Shown here piece after piece: positions 3,249-53,892 of a stretch of 64,000 nucleotides of DNA. Source of the DNA: an uncultured bacterium (GTDB taxonomy: Bacteria > Cyanobacteriota > Vampirovibrionia > Gastranaerophilales > Gastranaerophilaceae); assembly GCA_949290355.1 (NCBI GenBank), contig CASERN010000007.1:1-64000 (forward strand), given 5' to 3'. Below the pieces are notes generated by a model. The model worked only from the letters and a program-made list of their open reading frames with translations. It did not search any database and was not told where the DNA came from. The number at the start of each line of letters is the position of its first letter. Positions within the stretch are counted from its first letter, which is position 1. The position numbers were made by a program, and so were the translations under genes.

Positions 3249-3938
3249 CTATGGTGCATTGGCTAATATAAAACGATTATTCTTATCACGAACTATATCA
3301 CCATCATCTTGCAGTTGTTTTACCAGTTTATAGTATGATGTCTTCTTTAGTTTCAACATTTCCATAGCTTTTACATGTGATATTTCACCGTTACAGGCTT
3401 TTAGACAAACTTCTTCAAATCCTTGTGGTTTTACGAGTTTTGGTCTGCCTAGTTCTACCCCCTTTGCTTTACGTTCAGCAAGGCTATTCTTGGTTCTGAC
3501 AGATATATTTTTCTTCTCAATTGCACCCATAACGCTCATGACTGCAAGGATAATCTGTTTAAAGCCTTGTTGTACTATATCATCATTACCATTCTTGTAG
3601 GTGCAGAGTATCTGTTCCATTGGGTTTAGAGAAACAAACTCAGCCTTTTTGTTTTCAATAATTTCTCTATATACTTCTTGGAGTCCACTAGGTGAACGGT
3701 GTAACCTAAAGCATTCAAAGACGACAACAGTATCGCCCTCTCTAAGATTTTCAAGCAGGACTGGTAACTGTTGTCTTTTATTTACAGGTGTATCACCTTG
3801 ACAATGGTCTTTGTATATTGTTGAAACTATTACATTATTTTCTTTAGCCCATTTGTTTATAGCAAACTCTTGGTTCTCAATGGTCATGCCGTCCTGTTTA
3901 CTAACACGAGCATAGCCATATATTCTGTTTTCCGCCAT
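3249..3938 (-). CDS. Small serine recombinase (resolvase/invertase family)
   Basis: This 229-residue protein belongs to the resolvase/invertase family. The N-terminus reads YGYARVS, placing the nucleophile at Ser13. The catalytic segment FRLHRS corresponds to the usual DRLGRS, followed by the long E-helix (about residues 115-150, ending near RTKNSLAERKAKG). The last 50 residues form a helix-turn-helix region ending in KTSYYKLVKQL. It cuts and rejoins DNA at short inverted or direct sites to resolve or invert segments. The start is ATG 3938 behind AAGAGGATG. It runs opposite to most island genes. No matching crossover sites were recognised, though the nested hairpin at 3051 is near its 3' end. 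Confidence 0.85.
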   Translation of the reverse strand: MAENRIYGYARVSKQDGMTIENQEFAINKWAKENNVIVSTIYKDHCQGDTPVNKRQQLPVLLENLREGDTVVVFECFRLHRSPSGLQEVYREIIENKKAEFVSLNPMEQILCTYKNGNDDIVQQGFKQIILAVMSVMGAIEKKNISVRTKNSLAERKAKGVELGRPKLVKPQGFEEVCLKACNGEISHVKAMEMLKLKKTSYYKLVKQLQDDGDIVRDKNNRFILANAP

Positions 3939-3972
3939 ATTATCATCCTCTTATATTGCAGACAAAGTGGCA

Positions 3973-4245
3973 TTAAGCCACTTTAAAACGTCTGCTAAGT
4001 CTTTCAACCATGTATTCTTCAACCATTCCGAAATCTTCTCTAAATTTCTTTAAATCAAATACTTTTGATACAACTTGTGTAAAGTGAACAACCGCATTGC
4101 CTAAGTCTAAGTGTTGAATTTGGTTTAAGTCCATGTAATCCTTTAAGATTTGTTCTTGTGATTTAATAGCTTGTTTTAATTCTTCTTCTCTAGCATAAAG
4201 ATTGTTCAATGTTTCTGCTACCGCTTGTAATTCAACTTTGTTCAT
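3973..4245 (-). CDS. Coiled-coil phage-type hypothetical protein
   Basis: A 90-residue protein. Residues 1-40 are an obvious coiled coil rich in Glu, Leu and Gln. The C-terminal segment reads DLKKFREDFGM ... RLSRRFKV, which resembles the tail of small phage proteins whose C-terminus follows the pattern 'F-D-x-x-x-F-K ... Y ... R-x-F-x-V'. That similarity is from memory and only suggests a phage origin. The start is strong, with AAAGGAGA seven bases before ATG 4245. It precedes the resolvase by 34 bp on the same strand, so the two are probably co-transcribed. Confidence 0.6.
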   Translation of the reverse strand: MNKVELQAVAETLNNLYAREEELKQAIKSQEQILKDYMDLNQIQHLDLGNAVVHFTQVVSKVFDLKKFREDFGMVEEYMVERLSRRFKVA

Positions 4246-4564
4246 TTTTCTGTCTCCTTTTATTTCGTTCCTTACATTCTTATTATGACAGATAGTTCGT
4301 AAAATGTCAATATATTAACGAACGTTTGTTAAGATATATTGCGGCATTTTGCGAACTAATTTAAGCATAGATTTTCAACGTCCGTAATACGAACGTTTTA
4401 TGAACTATAATAGAGTTACCTTTAATCTTGATAAATTGATATGCATTAACAATATGATAGACTTAATGTAATACCCTCTGAAATCCTATTAATATATGAT
4501 TGCCGTTCTTTATAACAATGTTAAGATTTGTTAATATGGTATAGCTATAACCAAAGGATGAGTC
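4246..4564. promoter_or_regulatory. Divergent regulatory region with repeated AACGTT operators
   Basis: This 319-bp gap separates the leftward coiled-coil/resolvase pair from the rightward restriction-modification genes. It holds two exact copies of ACGAACGTTT (4318-4327 and 4389-4398). The first lies inside a near-palindrome, TTAACGAACGTTTGTTAA (4315-4332). GTTCGT at 4295 and ACGAAC at 4318 form a further inverted pair. Clustered symmetrical sites between divergent operons fit repressor binding. Delayed expression of the restriction enzyme would be useful after transfer. No controller protein of the C.BamHI type is visible nearby. Confidence 0.45.
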
Positions 4565-6421
4565 ATGACAGAAGAAAGAAAAGGTTTTTATTTTGAACTA
4601 TTAGAATTGTTAGAACAAGACCCGGAAAAGAGATTCTATGCTGATAATGGTAAGGACTTATTAAGAAATAAAGTCTATGAATGTGCTATGAAAATGGATA
4701 AAGACTTAATTAAGTTGCTATTATCCAATGACAAAATGAAAGAGAAATTCTTTACTGACATTGACGGCACATTAGTATTTGATAAGACTGCATTTGGTTG
4801 GGCTATAAATAACAAGGCATTTCTTCAAGATTCATATACAAGGTTTAAGAATACTATCGGTTTAATAGATAGCAAGGAACAATTCATTTCTTCTAAGAAT
4901 GACGTTGTATTATCGTTCCCTTATAAAGACTGCGTATTAGAAGGTGGTCAAACTAAGGAAGACCAGAAAAGAGGAGAAATATTCTATAATGAATTGCTTG
5001 CACCAGATGATGTTGATAGACTTCTTGCACCTAAAGTATTTACTAATATGAAAAGATATACTAAAGACGGAGAAGAAAGTATAACTGAATTTGATGACAA
5101 AGATAATCTTTTAATTAAAGGAAATAACTTACTTGCATTATCATCAATATTAAAAAGATATGAGGGTAGAGTAAAGTGCATATACATAGACCCACCATAC
5201 AATACTGGTAGTGATAGTTTTAATTATAATGATAACTTCAATCACTCAAGTTGGTTAGTGTTTATGAAAAATAGGTTATTACTTGCCAAGAAATTACTAA
5301 GTGAGGACGGTAGTATATTTGTTCAATGTGATGATTATGAAGACGCTTATTTGAAAGTTCTTATGGATGAAATCTTTGGTAGAGATAATTTTAGAAATAA
5401 GATTACGTGGAAAAGACGAGGTGGCAGTGCAAACCCTAAGAACCGACTAAATAATGTTACAGACTACATATTGTGGTTTTCTAAAAGTGATAAATTACTG
5501 TATAATCCAATCTTCTCCCTAGAAGATGAAAATACTCAGAAGTACATTAAAGAACGCTTTACCAATACAGATGAAAACGGACGAAAATATATGAAATCCC
5601 CTCTGCAAAGTCCCAATCCACGTCCTAATTTAATGTATGAATACAAGGGATATAGAGTTCCTGCTAATGGTTGGTCTATTTCAAAAGAAGTTATGGAAGA
5701 ATGGGATAGATTAGGAAAGCTATGTTTTCCTAAAGATAAGAATCAGAATATTAACCGTAAGATTTATTTAGATGAATATCAAGGACAGCCAGTTTCTTCT
5801 CTTTGGACAGATATTTTTGTTATAAATCCTATGTCTAAAGAGTCTGTTGATTTTGTAGGACAAAAGCCAGAAGCTTTGATACAAAGAGTTTTAGAAATGT
5901 GTTCCAATAAGAATGATATTGTGCTTGATTTTAATTTAGGAAGTGGTACAACAGCTTCTGTCGCTCAGAAAATAAATCGTCAATGGATTGGTATTGAACA
6001 ATTAGATTACGGTGATATTGATAGTGTTAAGCGTATAGAAAATGTATTAAAAGGTGATGATACAGGTATCTCAAAGTCTGTTAACTGGCATGGCGGTGGT
6101 AGCTTTGTTTATTGTGAATTAAAGGAACTTAACCACAAGTATATAGATGAAATACAAGTTGCAGATGATAATAAGCTAAATAACTTGTATAAAGAAATCA
6201 CAGATTCTGAATTTATAAGCTATAAAGCTGATATAAACAAACTTAAAGAATCAGAACAAGACTTCAAAGAACTATCAACAGAAAACAAGCGTAGTTTCTT
6301 AATTCAAGTATTAGATAAGAACTTGTTATATGTTAATTACTGTGATATGGAAGATGAAGACCTTGCTGTAACAGAAGAAGAAAAAGCCTTTGCAAGAAGT
6401 TTCTATGGTGAGGGTGTATAG
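4565..6421 (+). CDS. mod: Type III restriction-modification DNA methyltransferase (Mod)
   Basis: This 618-residue protein is a beta-class N6-adenine DNA methyltransferase. Motif IV, DPPYNTGSD, is at residues 209-217 and motif I, FNLGSGTT (usually FAGSGTT), is near residue 457; this IV-before-I order defines the beta class. The region between them is the target-recognition domain that sets the 5-6 bp asymmetric site. The enzyme methylates one strand of that site and forms the specificity subunit for the Res partner, which starts 2 bp downstream. The length is normal for Mod. The start ATG 4565 lies behind a weak AAAGGATG. The AsnLeu in motif I in place of PheAla is unusual but conservative. 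Confidence 0.93.
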   Translation: MTEERKGFYFELLELLEQDPEKRFYADNGKDLLRNKVYECAMKMDKDLIKLLLSNDKMKEKFFTDIDGTLVFDKTAFGWAINNKAFLQDSYTRFKNTIGLIDSKEQFISSKNDVVLSFPYKDCVLEGGQTKEDQKRGEIFYNELLAPDDVDRLLAPKVFTNMKRYTKDGEESITEFDDKDNLLIKGNNLLALSSILKRYEGRVKCIYIDPPYNTGSDSFNYNDNFNHSSWLVFMKNRLLLAKKLLSEDGSIFVQCDDYEDAYLKVLMDEIFGRDNFRNKITWKRRGGSANPKNRLNNVTDYILWFSKSDKLLYNPIFSLEDENTQKYIKERFTNTDENGRKYMKSPLQSPNPRPNLMYEYKGYRVPANGWSISKEVMEEWDRLGKLCFPKDKNQNINRKIYLDEYQGQPVSSLWTDIFVINPMSKESVDFVGQKPEALIQRVLEMCSNKNDIVLDFNLGSGTTASVAQKINRQWIGIEQLDYGDIDSVKRIENVLKGDDTGISKSVNWHGGGSFVYCELKELNHKYIDEIQVADDNKLNNLYKEITDSEFISYKADINKLKESEQDFKELSTENKRSFLIQVLDKNLLYVNYCDMEDEDLAVTEEEKAFARSFYGEGV

Positions 6422-6423
6422 AT

Positions 6424-9018
6424 ATGGGAACATTCTTATTCGAGGATATAAATGCACTTAGAGAGTTTGCACCAGAAGCATACAAGGAATTACCAAAGTA
6501 TGTAACAAAGAATCTTACTCAGAAATATTCTATCAGACCATATCAAGAACTAGCTTTTCGAAACTTGATAACATACTTTGAAAGTGAAAAATGTCATAAA
6601 CCTACACAAGTCCTGTTTCACATGGCAACAGGTAGCGGTAAGACTCTTATAATGGCGGGTTTAATCTTATATCTGTACAAGAAGGGTTATAGGAATTTCT
6701 TATTCTTTGTTAATACAGATAACATTGTTCAAAAGACTAAGGATAACTTTATTAACCATACTTCAAGTAAGTATCTGTTTAATGATGAAATCAACATTGA
6801 CGGTGAAATTATAAAGGTTCGCACAGTAGATAACTTTCAAGGTTGCAATCAAGAAGACATTAACATTTGTTTTACTACTATTCAAGGATTACACATGAGT
6901 CTTAATCAGTTCAAAGAGAATGGTTTGACTGATGATGACTTTGCAGAAAAGAACATTGTATTGATAGCTGACGAAGCACACCACCTTAATATAGAGACTA
7001 AAAAAGGTTTATCTAAATCGGAGAAAGAAGACAAAAGTAACTGGGAAACAACAGTTAATAGAATATTTAATTCCAATAGTGATAATGTATTACTTGAATT
7101 TACGGCAACATGTGATTTGAAAAATACATACATTAAAACCGCATACGAGAAAAAAATTATAATAGACTATCCTTTAAGAAAGTTTAGAGAAGACCGTTAT
7201 TCAAAGGAAGTTAAGACTTTTCAATCTCATGTACCTTTAATTGACAGAGTATTACAAGCAATACTATTAAGTCAGTATAGATTAAAGCTGTTTCAAGATA
7301 ATAAGAAAACCATTAAGCCTGTAATCTTATTTAAAAGTGATAAGATAGATTCAAGTAAAAGTTTCTATAAAGAACAATTCAGACCGCTTATCGAGAACCT
7401 ATCAGAAGCGGATTTAACAAGGATTAGAACACAGAATAGTCATCCGTTACTTGTTAAGATGTTTGAATACTTTGACAAACATTTGACAACAGAAGAACTG
7501 ATTGCAGAAATAAGAGAAGACTTTTCAGATGAGAAATGTGTTTCAGTAAACAGTAAAGAAGAAAAGGGAAATTATCAGTTACAGATTAACTCTTTAGAAG
7601 ACAGAAATAATCTGATTCGCTGTATCTTTGCTGTTGACCAATTAAATGAAGGTTGGGATGTTCTTAACTTGTTTGATATAGTTAGACTTTATGAAACAAG
7701 AAGTGCAGAAAGACATGGCGGTCCGGGAAAACAAACTATTCAAGAAGCTCAGTTAATAGGTCGTGGTGCGAGATATTGTCCATTTACGACTACGGATAAA
7801 GCAGAAAGATTCTTGCGTAAGTTTGATGAAGATATAGAAAATGAATTAAGAGTTTGTGAAACTCTCTATTACCATTGTATGAATAATTCCACATATATCT
7901 CAGAACTTACAACAGCTATGAGAGGTATAGGATTAATGCCAGATAACATTAAAGAATGTCCTTATATCCTTAAAGAAGACTTCAAGAATGATAACCTATA
8001 TAAACATGGTTTAGTCTTTGAAAATGAAAGAGCTGTTAAATCAAGAAATACAATAACTGAACTTTTACCGTCTGTCAGAGATACAATATATAGTTACGAC
8101 CTATCAGCAGGTGCTTCAAGCACAACTACCTTATTGGAAAGTTCAGCAGATGACACAAGCACAGGTGAAAGAGGAATCTTGAAAGAATTTGTTATTTCTA
8201 ATATTCCTTATCCTATCGTGCATAAGGCTTTAAGACAGTATAATATTTTTAAATTCAATATACTTAAACAATATTATCCTAATCTAACATCAATTAAACA
8301 ATTCATAACAGATTCTAAGTATTTAGGGAATATCAAGCTGAGTATAAGAATTAGTGAATCTGATATTACCAATGAACAGTTATATTTAGCCTTGAAATAT
8401 ACTTTAGGTAAAATATCAAATAGAATCTCAGACATTGAAGAAACTTACGAAGGAACAAAGGAATTTAAGCCTAGAAAACTATGTGAAGTATTCAGAGATA
8501 AGACCGTAAGTTATACAGACCCTCATGGAGACGGTCAAGGTGTATCACAATCAAATGGTGCAATATCAGAACACTTGAAGGTTAATCTTTCTAATGAGGA
8601 TTGGTTTGTATTTACCGATAACTATGGAACAAGTGAAGAAAAAGAGTTTGTTGCATACTTCAAAGACCACGTACAAGACTTAAAGAACAAATATGATAAG
8701 GTTTATTTAATAAGGAATGAAAGACAGTTAAAGTTATTCTCCTTTAATGGTGGTGAACGCTTTGAACCAGACTATGTTCTTATTATGACAAAACAAGAAG
8801 GTAATATTACAGACCAATACCAGATATTTATTGAACCTAAAGGTTCTCATCTTATAGAAAAAGACTCATGGAAAGAAGAATTTTTATTACAGATTGAAGA
8901 ATCTGGAAGACCAGTTAAAACACTTATAGATGATAACAATTATAAGATAGTCGGATTCCCATTCTTTAATGTTGCCGATAGACAAGCTCAATTTAACGAA
9001 GCTATGAGTAAGTTATAG
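6424..9018 (+). CDS. res: Type III restriction enzyme, helicase-endonuclease subunit (Res)
   Basis: This 864-residue protein is the cleaving partner of Mod. A superfamily 2 helicase core is visible: Walker A ATGSGKT near residues 68-74, the DEAH-type Walker B ADEAHH near 182, and motif VI QLIGRGAR near 447. The C-terminal nuclease has a PD-(D/E)xK arrangement, PDY near residue 782 and IEPKG near 803. Res and Mod form a complex that uses ATP hydrolysis to communicate between two head-to-head unmethylated sites and cut about 25 bp away. The ATG follows the Mod stop by two bases, so production is coupled. All catalytic motifs look intact. Confidence 0.93.
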   Translation: MGTFLFEDINALREFAPEAYKELPKYVTKNLTQKYSIRPYQELAFRNLITYFESEKCHKPTQVLFHMATGSGKTLIMAGLILYLYKKGYRNFLFFVNTDNIVQKTKDNFINHTSSKYLFNDEINIDGEIIKVRTVDNFQGCNQEDINICFTTIQGLHMSLNQFKENGLTDDDFAEKNIVLIADEAHHLNIETKKGLSKSEKEDKSNWETTVNRIFNSNSDNVLLEFTATCDLKNTYIKTAYEKKIIIDYPLRKFREDRYSKEVKTFQSHVPLIDRVLQAILLSQYRLKLFQDNKKTIKPVILFKSDKIDSSKSFYKEQFRPLIENLSEADLTRIRTQNSHPLLVKMFEYFDKHLTTEELIAEIREDFSDEKCVSVNSKEEKGNYQLQINSLEDRNNLIRCIFAVDQLNEGWDVLNLFDIVRLYETRSAERHGGPGKQTIQEAQLIGRGARYCPFTTTDKAERFLRKFDEDIENELRVCETLYYHCMNNSTYISELTTAMRGIGLMPDNIKECPYILKEDFKNDNLYKHGLVFENERAVKSRNTITELLPSVRDTIYSYDLSAGASSTTTLLESSADDTSTGERGILKEFVISNIPYPIVHKALRQYNIFKFNILKQYYPNLTSIKQFITDSKYLGNIKLSIRISESDITNEQLYLALKYTLGKISNRISDIEETYEGTKEFKPRKLCEVFRDKTVSYTDPHGDGQGVSQSNGAISEHLKVNLSNEDWFVFTDNYGTSEEKEFVAYFKDHVQDLKNKYDKVYLIRNERQLKLFSFNGGERFEPDYVLIMTKQEGNITDQYQIFIEPKGSHLIEKDSWKEEFLLQIEESGRPVKTLIDDNNYKIVGFPFFNVADRQAQFNEAMSKL

Positions 9019-9026
9019 TGGCAATA

Positions 9027-9057
9027 ATTTCATGTCCATATTGTGTCCACATGAAAT
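9027..9057. repeat. 9-bp inverted repeat after the restriction gene
   Basis: ATTTCATGT (9027-9035) and ACATGAAAT (9049-9057) are perfect complements around a 13-nt loop. There is no following T-run. It may stabilise the res mRNA end, or be an operator for the 343-aa gene that begins 90 bp further on. Confidence 0.45.
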
Positions 9058-9147
9058 GTTAATTCATGGTATCAGTATTTAATTCAATTACCGTTAATTG
9101 CTTTGCTACAAGGTAAAATCTAATTCATTCTTTATTTATGCTATGAT

Positions 9148-10179
9148 ATGGGTATGGAAATGGAATTAAAACAGGGTGAAATACAAGCACATTGTACTGA
9201 TATATCAGACGGTGCATTGGCTCTGGTAAGGTCTGTCTTATCTATAAGGAGTATCAGCATTCTAAAGGGTGGTTTTGAATTTATAACAGACACTCCAGAA
9301 CAGTATAACAGCTTGAATAATATAATAGATGAGGTAATGACTACTTTCACAGATTATTACTACGCTGCTAGCGAAGAAAATTATTTAGAACATCCATACT
9401 ACCAAGCCACCCTCTATGAAGGAGAAGAATTAAAAGACTATCATAAGAACTATTTTGACAACAATCCACTATTTAAAGTTGAGTATGAGAGGCTATCCGA
9501 TACAACAAATAGAATAGCATTTTCGGTTAAAGATAAGGACAAGTGTTTACAGGCACTTGACGATTATTGTTCAAAGTATGGTTATGATGAGTTATGGAAT
9601 GATGAAGCAAACATGCTTACTTGTGAAGCCCAAGACAAGCAATTATACAATCTATTGACAGAGAAGGATTATAACCTCAACAACTTCGTTATAACTGACA
9701 TCAAGTATATAAAGGCACTTTGTTATAACGAATATAAGGAAAAACTGTCTATAGCAAATGCAACTATTGGTATAGATGAGAATAATAAGCCTGTATTTAG
9801 ATGTACTATTGCAGATGAAGGATTTGTTGAAGGGTATGGAAAAGACGATAATGTAGAAGATGTTAAAGCAGAAGCTAAAACCAAAGCTGACAAGCCAAAG
9901 AAGGTAAGAAAACACTTCTCCCCCAGTGTGCAAGACCTATTCAATTACATCAAAACTTATGCTCAAGCCAGAGATTACCAGATATATCCTTATGAATTAA
10001 TCGGAGAAAAACCAGAGAAACTATATGAAAATATGGGAACATTGACAACTATGGTCAATAGATTGAATGAACAGTACAGAGAAATCTGTCATGATGATAC
10101 TATAACATTAATGAAATACGATAAGACTCTTGAGTGCTATATGATAACAGATATATGGAATAACAAAACTGTTATTTAG
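9148..10179 (+). CDS. Unknown 343-aa cargo protein next to the restriction system
   Basis: I do not recognise this protein. It is soluble and acidic (about residues 1-235), with a Lys/Ala-rich linker near 238-255 and a C-terminal domain (about 260-343). That last domain has a helix rich in Leu, Asn and Arg followed by two short strands, loosely like a winged helix. No nuclease, ATPase or methylase motif is seen. No good Shine-Dalgarno precedes ATG 9148. TATGAT lies immediately upstream, and an internal ATG at 9154 would also serve, so translation may be leaderless. It has its own terminator. As cargo beside a type III system it could be a defence or anti-defence accessory, which is only a guess from position. 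Confidence 0.6.
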   Translation: MGMEMELKQGEIQAHCTDISDGALALVRSVLSIRSISILKGGFEFITDTPEQYNSLNNIIDEVMTTFTDYYYAASEENYLEHPYYQATLYEGEELKDYHKNYFDNNPLFKVEYERLSDTTNRIAFSVKDKDKCLQALDDYCSKYGYDELWNDEANMLTCEAQDKQLYNLLTEKDYNLNNFVITDIKYIKALCYNEYKEKLSIANATIGIDENNKPVFRCTIADEGFVEGYGKDDNVEDVKAEAKTKADKPKKVRKHFSPSVQDLFNYIKTYAQARDYQIYPYELIGEKPEKLYENMGTLTTMVNRLNEQYREICHDDTITLMKYDKTLECYMITDIWNNKTVI

Positions 10180-10205
10180 TGGGTAACAAATTATATAAAT
10201 GGTAT

Positions 10206-10237
10206 GTAGCTACTATTCAATGATAGTAGCTATTTTT
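10206..10237 (+). terminator. Terminator of the 343-aa gene
   Basis: TAGCTACTAT (10207-10216) pairs perfectly with ATAGTAGCTA (10223-10232) around a 6-nt loop and is followed by TTTTT. Confidence 0.85.
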
Positions 10238-10251
10238 CGTGCCTAAATTTT

Positions 10252-10330
10252 CAGAATAACAATAACCGTTATTCTGGTTATCGTAGCCTGTCAAGCTGTG
10301 CGTAGCACGCAAAAGAAAAGGAGGCTACGC
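10252..10330 (+). promoter_or_regulatory. Operator-like repeat and Shine-Dalgarno hairpin before the 53-aa gene
   Basis: CAGAATAAC (10252-10260) and GTTATTCTG (10268-10276) form a hairpin. Its right part, AATAACCGTTATT (10261-10273), recurs inside the small gene at 10382-10394. Next, GCGTAGC (10300-10306) pairs with GCTACGC (10324-10330). The Shine-Dalgarno AAGGAGG (10318-10324) lies in the loop with its last base in the stem, so pairing could limit ribosome access. Confidence 0.5.
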
Positions 10331-10331
10331 T

Positions 10332-10493
10332 ATGAAAAAAAGAAATAACAACAATTCCGACATCACATTTAATGTTGATAGAATAACCGTTATTGTACAT
10401 TCCCCTACATTAGTAACTACAGATGAAGATAATAAAAGACAGTTGGCAAAGTACCTCTATAAGCTAGTAGAAATGAATAACAAAGCTATGTAA
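10332..10493 (+). CDS. Small protein of 53 residues
   Basis: A short gene supported by an excellent Shine-Dalgarno, AAGGAGG seven bases before ATG 10332. The product begins MKKRNNNNSDITFNV, has a central ITVIVH strand and ends in a charged helix with LAKYLYKLVE. It has no Cys pair or membrane segment and no family is recognised. Its position 63 bp before the integrase, and the size, fit an excisionase-like directionality factor or small repressor. No helix-turn-helix is evident, so this remains speculation. Confidence 0.6.
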   Translation: MKKRNNNNSDITFNVDRITVIVHSPTLVTTDEDNKRQLAKYLYKLVEMNNKAM

Positions 10494-10514
10494 ATGAAAC
10501 ATATGGCTGCCTGA

Positions 10515-10548
10515 ACCTCTTATTTGTGATACAATGCAAGTAAGAGGT
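10515..10548 (+). promoter_or_regulatory. Hairpin that can mask the integrase ribosome site
   Basis: ACCTCTTA (10515-10522) is the exact complement of TAAGAGGT (10541-10548). The right arm contains AAGAGG, the only Shine-Dalgarno candidate for the integrase ATG at 10557. Folding would hide it. The loop contains GATACAAT, which also resembles a -10 box. A transcript starting downstream of the left arm could escape the block. Confidence 0.5.
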
Positions 10549-10556
10549 ATCCTTTC

Positions 10557-12191
10557 ATGGTAAAGAAAAAATCTGGTAAAATTATTGAAACCAACAAAGC
10601 TGTTGCTTATGTTCGTGTATCATCTCGTGAGCAAGAAAAAGGATATTCTCTTACCGCTCAAGAAAAACTGCTACGGAAATATGCTAAAGATGAAGGATTT
10701 GAAATCGTAGAGTTCTTTAGAGAAGCAATGAGTGCGAAGAAATCTGGTCGTAAGCAATTTAACCTAATGCTTAAGTATTTAAAATCACATAAAGATGTTA
10801 ATAAACTGTTAGTTGAAAAAACTGATAGAATAACAAGAAATTTTAAAGATGTAGTAGACCTTGATGAAGTAGATGGGTTAGAATTGCACTTTGTAAAAGA
10901 AGGTTCGATTATATCTGAAAAATCAAAGAGCCAAGATAAAATGATATATGGCTTAAGAGTTGTTCTTTCTAAACAGTATATAGATAATCTGAAAGAAGAA
11001 GCAGAAAAGGGCATATTAGCTAAAATAGAAGACGGAGTTTATCCTTCTATTGCACCTGTCGGATATTATAATACAATGAACAAACTGGGTAAGCATATAA
11101 TAGCTGTTGATGAAGATAAAAGAGCTGTAGTAAGGAAAGCATTTGAACTGTATGCAACTGGTAATTATTCAGCTAAAACAATTAATGATATGTTGTACCC
11201 ACAGGGATTGACTAACAGAAATGGGAAAAAACTTGCTAAATCTACCGTTGAGAGAATGTTCAAGAATATCTTCTACATTGGACAATTTGAGTTCAAAGGA
11301 TTTATCTGTACTAATGCACAACATGAAGGGATTATTGACCTAAACACATTTAATGCGATACAAGAGCGTTTAGGTGGTGTTGTAAGGACAAGAACTCATG
11401 ATATTCAATTTCCTTATCAAGGACTGTTTAAGTGTGGCTTCTGTGGTGGTTTACTCACACCAGAATTAAAGAAAAAGAAAAGTGGTAAACAATACATATA
11501 TTACCATTGTAATGACTTTTATAGAAAAGGCTGTAAGAAGTTGTCCTACATATCTCAAACAAGCATAGATAAGGTATTGGCAGAGTTTCTAAAGAGTTTC
11601 CATGTATCAAGAGAGTTGATAGAAGAAATAAAGAGCTTTATCAAAGAAATACATGATGACAAAAATGACTATCAAGGAAAAGCAGAAGCTAACATTAGCA
11701 GAAAAATTGAACAGCTTAACAAACGCATAAGACAAGCCTATGATGACAGATGTGATGGTACTATTGAAGAAGATTTCTGGAAGAAGATAAACCAGGAATA
11801 TCATGCAGAGAAAGCTGAACTGATTGAACAACTGAACAGAATAAATGAAGCTGATGTTAAATTCTATGATACATGCGAGAAATTACTGGCATTTGCTAAG
11901 GACTCATACAACATGTTCATGAACGGAACTGTTGAAGATAAGCGATTTATCACTCAAACTGTACTATCGAACGCTACATATTATGACGGAAACTTTGATG
12001 TAGAGCTACATCCAGCATTTGATACCTTATTTAGGTTAGCCAAAGAAAGCAATCATCAAAATTCAACTATCGAACCACCTGAAACCCAGTCAGAGAGCAT
12101 AAAAAAAGCACCCGAAGGTGCTAAATTTAAAAATGGCGGGAACGACGAGGCTCGAACTCGCGACCTCATGCGTGACAGGCATGCGCTCTAA
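10557..12191 (+). CDS. Large serine integrase of the island
   Basis: This 544-residue protein is a large serine recombinase. The catalytic domain begins AYVRVSSREQ, with the nucleophile Ser near residue 21, and contains the arginine motif TDRITRN. The recombinase DNA-binding domain follows (about 155-270, including GYYN and the ST-repeat segment). A zinc-ribbon CGFCGG ... CNDFYRKGC lies near 298-330, with a coiled coil near 370-440. It catalyses unidirectional attP x attB integration. The last 18 or so residues (GGNDEARTRDL) are antisense readthrough of the tRNA-Asp gene, so the C-terminus was created or altered by insertion at this site. Confidence 0.92.
   Translation: MVKKKSGKIIETNKAVAYVRVSSREQEKGYSLTAQEKLLRKYAKDEGFEIVEFFREAMSAKKSGRKQFNLMLKYLKSHKDVNKLLVEKTDRITRNFKDVVDLDEVDGLELHFVKEGSIISEKSKSQDKMIYGLRVVLSKQYIDNLKEEAEKGILAKIEDGVYPSIAPVGYYNTMNKLGKHIIAVDEDKRAVVRKAFELYATGNYSAKTINDMLYPQGLTNRNGKKLAKSTVERMFKNIFYIGQFEFKGFICTNAQHEGIIDLNTFNAIQERLGGVVRTRTHDIQFPYQGLFKCGFCGGLLTPELKKKKSGKQYIYYHCNDFYRKGCKKLSYISQTSIDKVLAEFLKSFHVSRELIEEIKSFIKEIHDDKNDYQGKAEANISRKIEQLNKRIRQAYDDRCDGTIEEDFWKKINQEYHAEKAELIEQLNRINEADVKFYDTCEKLLAFAKDSYNMFMNGTVEDKRFITQTVLSNATYYDGNFDVELHPAFDTLFRLAKESNHQNSTIEPPETQSESIKKAPEGAKFKNGGNDEARTRDLMRDRHAL
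12101..12121 (-). terminator. Island-supplied terminator of tRNA-Asp
   Basis: On the minus strand GCACC, loop TTCG, GGTGC and seven T form a compact intrinsic terminator 12 bp after the tRNA 3' end. It lies inside the integrase reading frame on the opposite strand. It replaces the terminator now stranded at 615-642. Confidence 0.85.
12130..12139. other. Putative right attachment site, overlapping tRNA-Asp CCA end
   Basis: AAAATGGCGG is identical to 643-652. It contains the complement of the tRNA discriminator base and CCA. The tRNA remains complete on this side after insertion. Confidence 0.6.
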
Positions 12192-33869: not shown

Positions 33870-33900
33870 AAAAAAGTTCAGGATTTCCTGAACTTTTTTA
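33870..33900. terminator. Bidirectional terminator between pheS and the broken pilin gene
   Basis: AAAAAGTTCAGG and CCTGAACTTTTT around ATTT. The right flank overlaps the stop codon of the minus-strand gene. Confidence 0.9.
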
Positions 33901-34581
33901 TTTGTTTAATATATCTTTAATATAATATGATCCAAATAAAGGCTCTGAAATCGGGAGGCAATAACTAATATTTCCATCTCTCCAAGCTCCAAGAGTCGGG
34001 ATTCCTCCTTTATTGGCTATTCCTAGTGAAAATACATCTTGGCCTCCTTTATTAGGCCCTTTAAAACCATTTACGTCAAATCCTATTGTTGCGTAATAAG
34101 TATTTCCATTCCATGCATATGGGAATACTATAGTTCCATCATTTAGAACAGCAGCAGGATTCTTTTCTTTTATTTGATTATATGCAAAACCGCCGCATCC
34201 TGCGGTAGAAGGAAAGTCTTCTGCTTTGTAGTCAGGTACGCATCCATTTTCGTATGCTTTATTTTCACAAAATTTTGATACCTGTAAGTTATCAAGAAAG
34301 TATGTGAGCCATAATGCTTTGCAATCAGCTATATGCGAACTTGTCCCTTCGTTATCAGCATTAGTGCATTCAATATTACCCCCTCCCATGTCTTGGATGG
34401 ATTTATTAAATGCATTAGAAATAGTTGAATAAGTCTTTTTGAATTGATTTCTTATTACCATTTTTTTATACTGAGTCATCAAAACAGGAATTGTTATTGC
34501 AGCAACAACGCCAATAATTCCTAAAGTAATTAAAACTTCCGCTAAAGTAAAAGCTCTTTTTCTTCAATAATAGTGATTCAT
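33898..34581 (-). pseudogene. Pilin-like gene interrupted by UGA at codon 6
   Basis: Reading from ATG 34581, the gene begins MNHYY, then TGA (34566-34564), then RKRAFTLAEVLITLGIIGVVAA. The paralogue at 53170 has GGA (Gly) at this codon, so one base change created the stop. The signal is the class III prepilin type (cleavage before Phe, Glu at +5). The remaining frame, about 220 residues, is otherwise open. A restart at ATG 34482 would lack the signal and membrane helix. Other genes here use TGA as stop, so recoding is unlikely. Upstream lies the duplicated promoter cassette. Recent inactivation or an assembly error are the simplest readings. Confidence 0.75.
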
Positions 34582-49855: not shown

Positions 49856-50791
49856 ATGGAAGAATTTACACATTTTACGGTTATGAAAAATGAGGCTGTC
49901 GATGCACTGGAATGCCAAAATGGTAAAATTTATGTTGATTGTACTCTTGGCGGGGGCGGTCATAGCGGATTAATTTTGAGTCGTATTCAGCCTGATGGGC
50001 GCTTAATTGCTTTTGATGTCGACGAAGATGCGATTAGAGCATCTTCTGAGAGGTTAAAAGGTTACGACAACTTAACAATTGTAAAAGATTCATATACAAA
50101 TATTAAAAAAGTGTTACATAGTTTGGGTATAGAAAAAATTACCGGAGGTGTATTATTTGATTTGGGTGCATCATATCACCAGTTTCACAAAGGGGAAAGA
50201 GGTTTTTCATTCTCCAAAGAAGCTCCTCTTGATATGCGTTTTAACCAAGATGCTGAATTCTCAGCATATGATGTTGTAAATACATACAATGAGGCTGATT
50301 TAGTAAGGATTTTTTCTGAATATGGAGAGGAAAGATTTTCAAAAAGAATTGCAAAGAAAATTGTTGAAACAAGAAAGCTCAAAAAGCTTGAGACAACTAC
50401 TGAATTAGCTGAATTAATTGTGAATTGTACTCCTCATATAAAATCATCTATACATCCTGCTACGAGAGTGTTTCAGGCAATCAGAATAGAAGTAAATAAA
50501 GAGTTAACAAATGTAAAAAATACTCTGAATGATGTGTTGGATTTGTTGGACTTTGGTGCTATAATAAGTGTAATAAGTTTTCATTCTCTAGAAGATAGGT
50601 TAGTGAAAAACTTGTTCAGGTATCATTCGCAAAGGTGCCACTGTGATAAATATCAAATGATATGTCATTGTCCGCCACCAATATTGGAACTTGTTAATAA
50701 AAAACCGATAGTTGCGAGTGATGAGGAGATATCACAAAATCCGCCTTCAAGGAGCGCGAAACTCAGAATAGCTAGATGTATTAGGCGCTAA
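49856..50791 (+). CDS. rsmH: 16S rRNA m4C1402 methyltransferase
   Basis: RsmH (MraW) methylates N4 of C1402 in the ribosomal P site using SAM. The 311-residue protein has VDCTLGGGGHSGLIL (SAM motif about 28-42), DLGASYHQF (about 102-110), FSFSKEAPLDMRF and the C-terminal PPSRSAKLRIARCI. It normally heads the dcw division cluster; here it is followed by an FtsL-like gene only. An extended -10 (TGTTAAAAT) ends six bases before ATG 49856, suggesting a leaderless mRNA. Confidence 0.95.
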   Translation: MEEFTHFTVMKNEAVDALECQNGKIYVDCTLGGGGHSGLILSRIQPDGRLIAFDVDEDAIRASSERLKGYDNLTIVKDSYTNIKKVLHSLGIEKITGGVLFDLGASYHQFHKGERGFSFSKEAPLDMRFNQDAEFSAYDVVNTYNEADLVRIFSEYGEERFSKRIAKKIVETRKLKKLETTTELAELIVNCTPHIKSSIHPATRVFQAIRIEVNKELTNVKNTLNDVLDLLDFGAIISVISFHSLEDRLVKNLFRYHSQRCHCDKYQMICHCPPPILELVNKKPIVASDEEISQNPPSRSAKLRIARCIRR

Positions 50792-50831
50792 GATAAAAGG
50801 CAAGGGATAAAAATACAGTTGGGGTAGAAAA

Positions 50832-51305
50832 TTGAATACAGCACGAGTAAGAACATCTGAAATTTTATTACAACAAGAAAATTATTATTCTGACAGAGAT
50901 TATGTCCAAAACCCCTTAAAAGAAGAAAATCAAGTAATAGAAGGATATTTTCAAAAGGAGATATCACAAAAGGCAATGGCAATAAGAAAAGTAAATAAAA
51001 CTTTATGTGGATTATTAGGTATAGCTGTTATTGTTGCTTTTATCAGTTATTATTTTTCTATGTCAAATGAATTGGTTTTGAATAAGCTGAGTCGTCAGAT
51101 ATCTTCTTTGAATGAAGAAAATGCTGAATTGCAAAATAATTTAGACAGGTTAAAATCTTTTAATAATGTTGATAGCAAGATGATGCAATATAACATGCTC
51201 CAAAAGGCTGCAAAAGTAATAGAGGTTCCAGCTGTAGTATCCAAAGCACCTGTGGAGCAAAAAACTGACATGACAGCTTCATTTAATTGGTCTGTCGGTT
51301 ATTAA
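50832..51305 (+). CDS. FtsL-like division protein
   Basis: A 157-residue bitopic protein with a cytoplasmic N-terminus of about 50 residues, one membrane helix (about 57-77) and a periplasmic coiled coil (LSRQISSLNEENAELQNNLDRL, about 88-110) plus a Pro/Val tail. Position after rsmH is where ftsL lies in most bacteria, which supports the name; sequence alone would not. The start is TTG 50832 behind GGGGTAGAA. The terminator follows directly. Confidence 0.72.
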   Translation: MNTARVRTSEILLQQENYYSDRDYVQNPLKEENQVIEGYFQKEISQKAMAIRKVNKTLCGLLGIAVIVAFISYYFSMSNELVLNKLSRQISSLNEENAELQNNLDRLKSFNNVDSKMMQYNMLQKAAKVIEVPAVVSKAPVEQKTDMTASFNWSVGY

Positions 51306-51320
51306 CCAAAGATTATAGTA

Positions 51321-51357
51321 AAAAAAAGAACTAAATTTTATTTAGTTCTTTTTTTTA
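51321..51357 (+). terminator. Terminator of the rsmH-ftsL unit
   Basis: AAAGAACTAAA pairs with TTTAGTTCTTT, then a long T-run. Confidence 0.9.
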
Positions 51358-51500
51358 TATTTAATTAAAAAATAAGTAGTAAAATTAAACAAAAGTTTGA
51401 TTTATCCCATACTAAAGTATGAATTTTTGTAAAAATTATTAAAGTTTTTTTTATGTCATGCCGTATATATTTTTGAAGGCATGTATGTAAGGAAAATTTA

Positions 51501-52751
51501 ATGAAAAAAGAAGAGAATAAAAATGGAGTGTCCCTTTTTTCTCAATCGGATTATTTGATAGATAAAGATCCTATTGAGGAGATTTTTGCGCTTAATTTAG
51601 GAGATTTTGTTGCAGAAAATCTTATTTCAGAAGATTTAGCAAGAAAGATTGGGGCAAGTGTAAAAGATAAAAAAGCTGGTTTGATAAAGCAGTTAAAAGA
51701 ATTAATCTCTATTTATTCACTTCAAAATACTTTGTGTGTTTTGAGTTTTGATAATAATGAAAAACAGGCAATTTTTACTTCAATAGCCCAGTCTATACAA
51801 AAAATGCTTGACATAGATTCATGTGATATTTATATCGAAAAATCAGGAGAGTTGGAGTTAATTGGGGCGACTAGTTCTAAAGCTTCAAAAAAATATTTGA
51901 TAGATGAAAAATCTCCGATTGGCAAAGCTTTTTTGAGTAGAGAAATTATTTTTGAAAATGTTATTGCAGTTCCGATGCATTGTAATATTAGGTCTGTCGG
52001 GGTTATTGTTATAAATGATAATTCTATAAAAAAAGAGTATATTGATCTGGTAGAAAGTATAGGGACTCTTTTTGCAACTTCATTAACATTACAGGATAAT
52101 ATTGATGACGCAAATAAATTAATATCTGATGAAAGTGCATCTGTTGCAGATTTACAGCATATGAGAGCAGAATTAACAGCATTAATTGGAGATTTATGTG
52201 ATTATCAACAAGCTTTTGTGGAATATTTAGCAAATGCGGTTGATAAAAAAGGTCAATATACAGTTTCTCATTCGAAAAATACTGCAAAACTTGCAAAACT
52301 TATATGTAAACAATTAGGATTGAATGAAAAGACAACCGATTTAATATATTATTCCGGATTGTTATTAAATATTGGAAAGATTGCATTACCTGAAAAAATG
52401 TTTGCAACAAACGGAAAACTTTCTAAAGAAGAATTAAATAAAATTCAGGAGCATTCAAACTTAGGTGTACATTTATTAATGAAAATCAACTTCTTGTCAG
52501 AAGTTGTACCTTACATAACTTATCAGAAAGAAAGATATGACGGTTCAGGATGCCCTGAAGGTCTTAAAGGACAATCAATACCTTTCGGGTCAAGAATTGT
52601 TGCGGTAGCAGATGCTTATTGCGCAATGACATCAGACAGACCATATAGAAAAGCAATGTCAGTAAATGATGCAATAAAAGTTATAAAATCCGAAGCTGGT
52701 TCAAAATGGGATCCTGTTGTGGTTGAAGCTTTGATAAATGTAGTAAAATAA
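51501..52751 (+). CDS. GAF plus degenerate HD-GYP protein
   Basis: A 416-residue cytoplasmic protein. Residues about 75-200 look like a GAF sensor domain. Residues about 235-416 are an HD-GYP domain by overall pattern (LAKLICKQLGL, IGKIALPEKM, RYDGSGCPEGLKG, SDRPYRK). HD-GYP enzymes hydrolyse cyclic di-GMP using metals held by His and Asp. Here the HD pair is replaced by Leu289-Asn290, the HHE triplet reads QKE (342-344) and GYP is GCP (350-352). The Asp-Ala-Tyr-Cys segment also lacks the second Asp. It is therefore probably a binding or signalling protein without phosphodiesterase activity. GGAAAA precedes ATG 51501. Confidence 0.85.
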   Translation: MKKEENKNGVSLFSQSDYLIDKDPIEEIFALNLGDFVAENLISEDLARKIGASVKDKKAGLIKQLKELISIYSLQNTLCVLSFDNNEKQAIFTSIAQSIQKMLDIDSCDIYIEKSGELELIGATSSKASKKYLIDEKSPIGKAFLSREIIFENVIAVPMHCNIRSVGVIVINDNSIKKEYIDLVESIGTLFATSLTLQDNIDDANKLISDESASVADLQHMRAELTALIGDLCDYQQAFVEYLANAVDKKGQYTVSHSKNTAKLAKLICKQLGLNEKTTDLIYYSGLLLNIGKIALPEKMFATNGKLSKEELNKIQEHSNLGVHLLMKINFLSEVVPYITYQKERYDGSGCPEGLKGQSIPFGSRIVAVADAYCAMTSDRPYRKAMSVNDAIKVIKSEAGSKWDPVVVEALINVVK

Positions 52752-52792: not shown

Positions 52793-53086
52793 TTATTGAA
52801 TAATACTAAACGTTACTATATTGTCAATTGATATATTTAGCCAATCGTATTTAAAACACATATAATCGTTACAGTCGCATTTATCTTTATTGCAATTGCA
52901 ATAATCCGAAAGTCTGCAAATTAATGCATTTTCTAATGTAATAAAATCATCATGGCATTCTTCGCATTTTCCTTCCGGCATAAAAATGTTTCCGTCAATT
53001 TTTAAATTTTGGGTAAAAATTGAAATTTTATTAGAGCCGCTTTCTTCTACAATTTTTCCTATTGATTTTAATAAATGTTTTGTCAT
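52793..53086 (-). CDS. Cysteine-rich small protein
   Basis: A 97-residue protein. After a strand-rich N-terminus, nine cysteines lie in residues about 41-77: CEECH, ICRL, CNCNKDKCDC and MC. The spacing suggests one or two metal sites rather than a classical ferredoxin or rubredoxin. No signal peptide is present, so it is cytoplasmic. AGGAGT precedes ATG 53086. Neighbours give no hint. The function is unknown. Confidence 0.6.
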   Translation of the reverse strand: MTKHLLKSIGKIVEESGSNKISIFTQNLKIDGNIFMPEGKCEECHDDFITLENALICRLSDYCNCNKDKCDCNDYMCFKYDWLNISIDNIVTFSIIQ

Positions 53087-53169: not shown

Positions 53170-53892
53170 TTAAATTTTCACCGGATAATCTTTTTTAATT
53201 TGCCATCCGTCCTGTTGTATTAAAGCTCCGCAAACCATTCCATTTTTACATTTTTCTTTTAGCTCATCTCTTGAATCAGTAGAACCTAGCCAAGTAAATT
53301 TTCCTGTACTAGATATTATTTCTGCAACAAATGTATCTTTGCCAAATACATTAGGAGGATGTTTCCCATTTACATCAATGTATAAAAGAATATTTGTACT
53401 TATACCCCCATTTGCTGTAGAGGAGTTCATATAAACAAATATAGTCATCCCATTTGCAAATTCGATTACATAATGTTCTTTGCTTAAAAAGTTTAAATTG
53501 TTGCTATTAATACTTCCATCAGGTGCATGATATACGTCATACCCAGCTTTTGACATTGACATATACCCGCTTCTGTTAACATCTTTTAGGTATGGTAAGA
53601 AATATTTTTCAGTTAAATCAATTATTAATTTTTTTCTGTTTTGGTCTGATACATCAGAGCCATATACCTGACTGAATTCCCAAGTATTAGGATCACCATA
53701 TTCTGCTATTGCAAAATTCAACATTTGAGAGATTGTGCTTTGTGCAACTTTTAGTCTTGTTTCTATAACTTTTTTCTTGTGATTAGAAATTAATGTTGGA
53801 ATAGTCATTGCAGCAACAACGCCTATTATCCCCAAAGTAATTAAAACTTCCGCTAGTGTAAAAGCTCTTTTTCTTCCATAATAGTGATTCAT
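53170..53892 (-). CDS. Type IV pilin-like protein with prepilin signal
   Basis: This 240-residue protein starts MNHYYGRKRA and continues FTLAEVLITLGIIGVVAAMTIP. That is a class III prepilin signal: cleavage after the basic leader, N-methylated Phe, and Glu at +5. The hydrophobic helix (about 11-33) anchors it in the inner membrane or fibre. The remaining globular domain has paired Cys in EKCKNGMVCGAL near 215-226. It is probably a minor pilin or pseudopilin, or one of the lineage's expanded surface family. The ATG lies nine bases after TATAAT and lacks a Shine-Dalgarno. The paralogue at 33898 is broken. Confidence 0.88.
   Translation of the reverse strand: MNHYYGRKRAFTLAEVLITLGIIGVVAAMTIPTLISNHKKKVIETRLKVAQSTISQMLNFAIAEYGDPNTWEFSQVYGSDVSDQNRKKLIIDLTEKYFLPYLKDVNRSGYMSMSKAGYDVYHAPDGSINSNNLNFLSKEHYVIEFANGMTIFVYMNSSTANGGISTNILLYIDVNGKHPPNVFGKDTFVAEIISSTGKFTWLGSTDSRDELKEKCKNGMVCGALIQQDGWQIKKDYPVKI

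Follow-up and report, generated by a model that had tools for sequence, protein, structure and literature searches.

Non-catalytic and catalytic HD-GYP proteins

A non-catalytic HD-GYP receptor of c-di-GMP, DvhD of Desulfovibrio vulgaris, was crystallised in 2026 (PDB 9RBZ, 9RC0; PMC13090378). According to that report, DvhD carries SQ in place of the HD diad and M and N in place of the HH pair, binds c-di-GMP without metal density (effective Kd for PAS/HD-GYP, 99 nM), and showed no hydrolysis of it; it also takes 3'3'-cGAMP (Kd about 0.5 uM) and, weakly, pGpG. Its canonical site comprises Y523, L577, K582, Y621, M646, R650, Y652, R653, and E668, the last of which reportedly forms a hydrogen bond to the amino group of guanine, and the mutants R650A, Y652A/R653A, and P567T clearly weakened stabilisation by c-di-GMP (PMC13090378). 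In our literature search on degenerate or inactive HD-GYP proteins, DvhD was the sole non-catalytic case found with a solved structure of the c-di-GMP-bound receptor. The principle, a dead c-di-GMP-handling domain made into a receptor, is already known from DvhD and from degenerate GGDEF-EAL receptors of the LapD/FimX type, which have the EAL fold and not that of HD-GYP.

Two further structures frame the comparison, both taken from PMC4159591. PmGH of Persephonella marina (4MCW, 4MDZ, 4ME4) is an active enzyme with three irons, in which a single alanine change of H221, D222, H276, or H277 nearly abolished activity, and R314 and K317 contact the nucleotide; the GYP tyrosine is a c-di-GMP contact in both PmGH and DvhD (PMC4159591; PMC13090378). 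Bd1817 of Bdellovibrio bacteriovorus (3TM8, 3TMC) is a catalytically inactive HD-GYP protein that lacks the GYP tyrosine; two irons are bound in it, and its cleft is closed (PMC4159591).

Domain architecture of P0001

The window, that is, the whole stretch of DNA analysed, comprises 64,000 nucleotides of contig C7 in a 1.85 Mb genome. At 51501..52751 (+) it carries an open reading frame with an ATG start for a degenerate GAF/HD-GYP protein of 416 aa, P0001, assigned from its translation, Pfam HD_5 match, and orthologues. Residues 243-407 match HD_5 (PF13487) at 1.9e-42 (145.3 bits against a curated cut-off of 27.2), and the modelled fold is that of solved HD-GYP domains, both of which place P0001 in the HD-GYP superfamily; NCBIfam matches all stayed below cut-off (NosR-type HD-GYP, 142 of 400 bits; HDIG, 27 of 27.6). 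Pfam, profile, and structure matches together delimit the HD-GYP domain to residues 241-416 (52221..52748, +). It is preceded by a GAF domain (residues 84-196; 51750..52088, +), which scores below the Pfam cut-offs (PF01590, E 0.017 and 16.1 of 22.4 bits; PF13492, 15.3 of 27) and is backed by the AlphaFold model, by PDB matches (4mn7_B, Z 15.2, rmsd 2.2, 114 aligned), and by a profile match to 3e0y (4.6e-07). The dCache and PAS domains that stand before HD-GYP in the Dvh adhesin system found no match in the Pfam scan of P0001, which has a GAF fold there instead.

The AlphaFold model (47 rows, mean pLDDT 71.6, pTM 0.69) gives the order helical N-terminus (poorly predicted), GAF, long helices, and HD-GYP. 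The pocket is modelled at low confidence, with ten-residue pLDDT means of 46-65 over residues 291-360. In a Foldseek search with this model, the top match was the GAF/HD-GYP protein PmGH (1e-12), followed by c-di-GMP-bound DvhD (3.4e-9). VIA-align ranked c-di-GMP-bound DvhD highest (9rbz_C, Z 19.1, rmsd 3.6, 186 aligned), with 4mcw_B (Z 18.4, rmsd 18.4, 283 aligned) less than one Z unit below and so counted as a tie; 4r8z_B came after these (Z 17.9, rmsd 3.0, 185 aligned). PmGH thus resembles P0001 in its GAF-helix-HD-GYP order and in a structural match over nearly the whole length. The likeness to DvhD lies in the fold, the missing metal motifs, and a sensor domain joined by a long helix; the predicted helices linking GAF to HD-GYP in P0001 (residues 178-209 and 215-250; 52032..52250, +) would correspond to the moving stalk of DvhD (PMC13090378). 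DvhD differs in being a membrane protein (dCache, TM, PAS) of an adhesin operon and in keeping the GYP tyrosine, which P0001 has lost, and P0001 has a GAF domain and a different N-terminal module.

Loss of metal ligands

The initial annotation read the HD, HHE, and GYP motifs as LN, QKE, and GCP, and translation and alignment give the same residues: L289-N290 (52365..52370, +) at the positions of PmGH H221 and D222, Q342-K343-E344 (52524..52532, +), of which the first two correspond to H276 and H277, and G350-C351-P352 (52548..52556, +). Its statement that all core metal residues are changed went too far. Five of the eight PmGH metal ligands are replaced (E185 by Y253, H221 by L289, D222 by N290, H276 by Q342, and H277 by K343), but H189, H250, and D305 are kept as H257, H318, and D371, as is PmGH K225 (K293), and with three ligands remaining some metal binding by P0001 is possible. 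Y253 is no mark of decay, since the E185 column holds Glu in just 3 of 47 intact control HD-GYPs and Tyr in 27. P0001 therefore lacks the combination of HD diad and HHE ligands of an active HD-GYP phosphodiesterase and shows the replacement of HD and HH found in DvhD (LN and QK against SQ and MN). Bd1817 shares the missing tyrosine but retains bound irons, whereas P0001 has lost the HD and HH ligands.

To see where the losses fall, 34 representatives of the subfamily were set against 47 HD-GYP domains from the phylum in which both HD and HH are intact. The controls came from a non-random set of 54, of which 40 were hand-picked from the higher-scoring rows and 14 were others (the paralogues L002-L005 and ten further loci); the seven without both HD and HH were dropped. 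At 33 positions a residue is shared by 80% or more of the 47 controls. Only at five of these do fewer than 20% of the subfamily representatives have it (H289, D290, L301, H343, and Y351, named by the control residue), and the five include three metal ligands and the GYP tyrosine. K303, E311, and H342 are intermediate (47-53%), and the other 25 of 33 stay at 74% or above, in agreement with the earlier remark that the rest of the domain is well preserved. E344 of HHE is conserved in all 34 representatives.

A tree was built without the motif columns by a "quick" method, with support given by SH-aLRT alone. A branch supported at SH-aLRT 99 parts the 34 subfamily rows, together with control L005 alone, from all the others. 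The end branch of L005 is 5.7 changes per column, so that it cannot be placed, and as L005 lies on the subfamily's side of the split, the subfamily is not strictly one clade in this tree. DvhD groups with the controls, on a branch that is likewise long, and for this reason the metal-motif losses of DvhD and of the P0001 subfamily look independent.

Distribution and selection

Orthologues of P0001 were sought at E<1e-80 in 116 genomes. All 33 of the 33 genomes of the genus, the own one counted, have a match. Elsewhere in the family 35 of 37 do, the exceptions being G054 (85% complete) and G059 (84%). For the remaining families of Candidatus Gastranaerophilales the count is 18 of 22, with none found in G070 (96% complete), G078 (88%), and G088 (88%) and a partial one in G090. 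The fetched frames measure 413-487 aa from stop to stop. In a class sample, 299 of 382 genomes match P0001 at 1e-60, at one place each, 13 of them in two other families (f9 and f15), and one listed match (G399) has a stop inside; in a phylum sample, 174 of 386 genomes match, and all 174 rows lie within the class. The nearest named relatives of this gut bacterium, itself distant kin of the cyanobacteria, are mostly MAGs of Candidatus Gastranaerophilales (Melainabacteria).

Once identical frames had been collapsed, 176 loci gave an alignment of 135 rows, P0001 and 134 others, which still contains near-identical rows and whose rows are related by descent. It leaves out the partial locus L092 of G090, the own copies L001 and L006, the paralogue loci L002-L005, and the GGDEF/PilZ loci L096-L104. 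At the column of PmGH D222 it has N in 133 rows, S in 1, and H in 1, so Asp is lost in 135 of 135. The H277 column (K 99, T 18, R 8, S 6, A 2, Y 1, H 1) has lost His in 134 of 135. Histidine lingers in some lineages at the other two positions, in 9 of 135 at H221 (Q 115, H 9, L 4, R 3, G 3, S 1) and in 41 of 135 at H276 (Q 87, H 41, K 5, R 1, N 1). Within GYP, the glycine is kept in 134 and the proline in 133 of the 135 distinct sequences and the tyrosine in none (E 54, S 19, T 19, K 19, V 7, others). The same kinds of loss thus recur throughout the orthologues, which puts them beyond chance, and the alignment shows the HD/HH residues that hold the catalytic metals to be largely gone across the order. 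Whether homologues in the order share the losses had been posed at the outset, with homologues keeping HD and HHE taken as the sign of strain-specific decay; that case does not hold, given the state of the D222 and H277 columns. P0001 is a member of an old, true subfamily.

Conservation of the rest of the domain, under purifying selection, is likewise shown by sequence comparison. Between the window gene and four orthologues of the genus, NG86 gives dN of 0.14-0.17 and dS of 1.2-1.5, the latter near saturation, and for the close pair L112/L113 dN/dS is 0.012/0.161, a ratio near 0.1 (NG86 values are quoted because YN00 gave a value for just 1 of 10 pairs). The domain's mean column entropy is 0.96 bits, about equal to that of the N-terminal module (0.89) and well under that of the GAF domain (2.00), the least conserved of the three.

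c-di-GMP signalling proteins of the genome

The genome has five HD_5 matches, the P0001 gene included. L002, which combines GGDEF and HD-GYP, has HD, HHE, and GYP all intact, and L003, a GAF/HD-GYP protein, keeps HD and HHE with GYY for GYP. There are also seven GGDEF matches, at least three of them with GGEEF, and two PilZ matches, and every one of 79 genomes sampled from the order has GGDEF. An intact HD-GYP and GGDEF proteins, which had been named as something to look for in this genome, are therefore both present, and on the strength of the GGDEF counts c-di-GMP is probably made in these cells. A literature search on c-di-GMP in Melainabacteria or HD-GYP proteins in Gastranaerophilales gave nothing on the subject among the matches listed.

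Two of the paralogues deviate in their own ways. L004 (C11:158263-158688), fused to GGDEF, has YD for HD and keeps HHE and GYP, so only the first His is lost; this second HD-GYP variant recurs as YD in the same family and as CD or SD in family f18 of the phylum (L004, L251, and L253; L247, L229, and L235). L005 (C11:1005042-1005488) is a small HD-GYP-like protein in a 266-aa frame, with HD but HHQ, an altered GYP loop, and the very long branch mentioned above.

The active-site cleft and its possible ligand

Aligned with DvhD, P0001 is identical at seven of the nine canonical contacts (Y253, L307, M376, R380, Y382, R383, and E398) and changed at two (Y621 to C351 and K582 to L312). Among the bridging residues of DvhD, K520 and P567 correspond to K250 and P297, and R569 is replaced by K299. 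The counterparts of the residues hit in the weakened DvhD mutants, R380, Y382, R383, and P297, are all kept. R380-P-Y382-R383 (52638..52649, +) aligns with R650/Y652/R653 of DvhD and with R314/K317 of PmGH (PMC13090378; PMC4159591), and R380, R383, and I360 are each invariant in 135 of 135, both arginines also standing at 100% among the representatives. Other contact columns vary more: that of L577 has Pro in 8 of 135, that of Y382 has H, F, or Q in 15, that of P297 is non-Pro in 21, and that of Y253 is non-Tyr in 16, of which 8 are gaps.

The kept contact residues apart from E398 are common in intact HD-GYPs too, so they do not discriminate and may be structural. E398 (52692..52694, +), the counterpart of DvhD E668, does discriminate: Glu is present in 34 of 34 representatives against 2 of 47 intact controls, and both of these (L225 and L256) have the loop built differently. 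Over the 135 sequences the column reads E in 125 and D in 10. The alignment of E398 with E668 adjoins a one-residue gap, and the rows being kin, the fixation counts as one event in the clade and not 34, or as two with DvhD.

The reading to which we give somewhat more than even credence is that P0001 is a soluble, dimeric, non-catalytic HD-GYP receptor of c-di-GMP or a related cyclic dinucleotide. Receptor and adaptor had stood side by side in the initial annotation, and the receptor is favoured here because the contacts known from DvhD are largely kept, with Y621 and K582 as the points on which the likeness fails. It is proposed that c-di-GMP would bind metal-free in the old active-site cleft at the seven identical residues, and that a second molecule possibly bridges the dimer at K250 and P297. 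In the manner of DvhD, binding would set the long helix at a different angle relative to the GAF domain, and a partner would read this change, perhaps via the N-terminal module (residues 24-83). The variable GAF domain may provide a second input or serve as a dimer scaffold only.

This module was defined at 51570..51749 (+) by alignment and profile searches, and it carries DPxEEIFALNLGDF. The Pfam scan of it gave nothing above cut-off, and a weak BrxL_N match (0.081) was taken as noise; a resemblance to MshEN was considered as a possibility. A profile built from 15 rows (A3) matches 131 of 292 phylum genomes, at one place each and always in frames of 404-487 aa, the size of P0001, and finds nothing in the own genome at E<=1 other than P0001 itself. 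The module is a candidate output surface.

A wider claim may be put forward tentatively, with rather less confidence than the receptor role itself: that P0001 represents a core receptor of gut Melainabacteria, present in single copy through nearly the whole order, a metal-free c-di-GMP switch which, independently of DvhD, lost the metal site and the GYP tyrosine, fixed the same guanine-reading Glu, and gives its output via an N-terminal module seen in no other protein here. If true, HD-GYP receptors would have evolved convergently, and P0001 would be a first assigned c-di-GMP effector for the lineage. What would be new is the nearly order-wide occurrence of an apparently independent second case, with the GYP tyrosine lost and a module of its own, in a domain easily mistaken for a phosphodiesterase. 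With a second example that is conserved and arose independently, sensing by HD-GYP without metal would become a general solution. It would also suggest a sequence rule by which to find further cases, HD and HH lost plus an acid about six residues before an (F/W)D motif, and the P0001 family would give a handle on c-di-GMP signalling in this gut lineage.

The main rival to the c-di-GMP receptor reading is a protein adaptor that works without nucleotide, its HD-GYP domain a mere scaffold for, e.g., a GGDEF protein or an active HD-GYP and its cleft empty or closed as in Bd1817. We regard it as rather unlikely, though it is suggested by the loss in all 135 sequences of a tyrosine that contacts c-di-GMP in PmGH and DvhD, and by the many conserved, subfamily-specific residues outside the cleft motifs (e.g., N275, K277, T278, Y283, Y284, N320, M327, N330, F331, and Y338), which together with the separate N-terminal module point to protein surfaces. 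The invariance of R380 and R383 and an E398 column that is acidic throughout argue against an adaptor; E398 is a novelty that most intact HD-GYPs do not have, and its counterpart in DvhD has a ligand role (PMC13090378). Moreover, the HD-GYP:GGDEF contact of the RpfG type is reported to need the GYP motif (PMC4159591), which is broken in P0001.

The c-di-GMP receptor reading also has to be weighed against another ligand in the same cleft, namely pGpG, 3'3'-cGAMP, c-di-AMP, or a mononucleotide. The presence of GGDEF proteins in every sampled genome of the order and the guanine amino group faced by the DvhD counterpart of E398 (PMC13090378) make this improbable in our judgement, even if DvhD accepts 3'3'-cGAMP and, weakly, pGpG (PMC13090378), 134 of 135 sequences have M or L in the base-facing M376 column, and position 312 is variable. 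Far less probable still is that P0001 remains a phosphohydrolase, its metal centre reduced to H257, H318, and D371: these residues are kept in 134, 121, and 134 of 135 sequences and K293 in 123, but the metal-bridging Asp and the second HHE His are gone, and either single loss nearly abolished PmGH activity (PMC4159591). Recent decay of an enzyme into a pseudogene, for which the motif losses alone would speak, is ruled out by the orthologues, with open frames in genera across the order and the metal Asp loss common to 135 distinct sequences, and by the low dN/dS.

Genomic neighbourhood

Upstream on the same strand (49856..51305, +) lie two open reading frames, one at 49856-50791, which looks rsmH-like from its sequence, and one at 50832-51305 for an FtsL/DivIC-like coiled-coil protein (DivIC E 0.012, below cut-off). 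They are separated from the P0001 gene by a terminator-like hairpin of 19 bp with a T-run (51318..51358, +; -17.5 kcal/mol against -5 +/- 1.86 for shuffles, z -6.7), which suggests that transcription ends before the P0001 gene; a terminator scan asking for 3 G-C pairs did not list it. Loci that extend 2.5 kb or more upstream were counted for an rsmH-like gene close to the orthologue. It is present in 19 of 24 such loci among L105-L134, the 30 nearest with a name (not in L110, L121, L126, L132, and L133), and in 45 of 68 among all 80 named loci, but in only 6 of 48 of L036-L091, which represent the wider family, order, and class. The earlier statement that the gene is expressed beside division genes is thus weak: sequence does not reveal expression, a hairpin lies between, and the neighbourhood is local to the nearer relatives. 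A functional link to cell division finds no support in these data. Other neighbours are scattered: in L036-L095 less the partial L092, no cluster at 60% mutual coverage, P0001 itself apart, occurs in more than 7 of 59 loci. This clustering yielded neither a conserved neighbour nor a partner for the output, which speaks against the receptor reading.

Downstream, at 52793-53086 (-), a 97-aa Cys-rich protein (CEECH, CNCNKDKCDCN) is encoded, which in near relatives often stands just after the HD-GYP gene and is found in 7 of 59 loci of L036-L095. The frames at 53170-53892 (-) and 33898-34482 (-) are presumably prepilin-like, judging by a motif. Frames resembling 53170-53892 are near the P0001 gene in many relatives and probably belong to a large scattered family. 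The region 3249-12191 appears island-like, with what we take to be serine-recombinase-like frames (3249-3938, -, and 10557-12191, +) and, inside it, a presumed type III restriction-modification pair (4565-6421 and 6424-9018).

Three records under other names, Fusobacterium sp. CAG:439 (L112), a Heliobacteriaceae bacterium (L144), and an uncultured Brachyspira sp. (L162), carry P0001 orthologues of 64-77% identity; by these sequences, they look like misnamed Gastranaerophilales.
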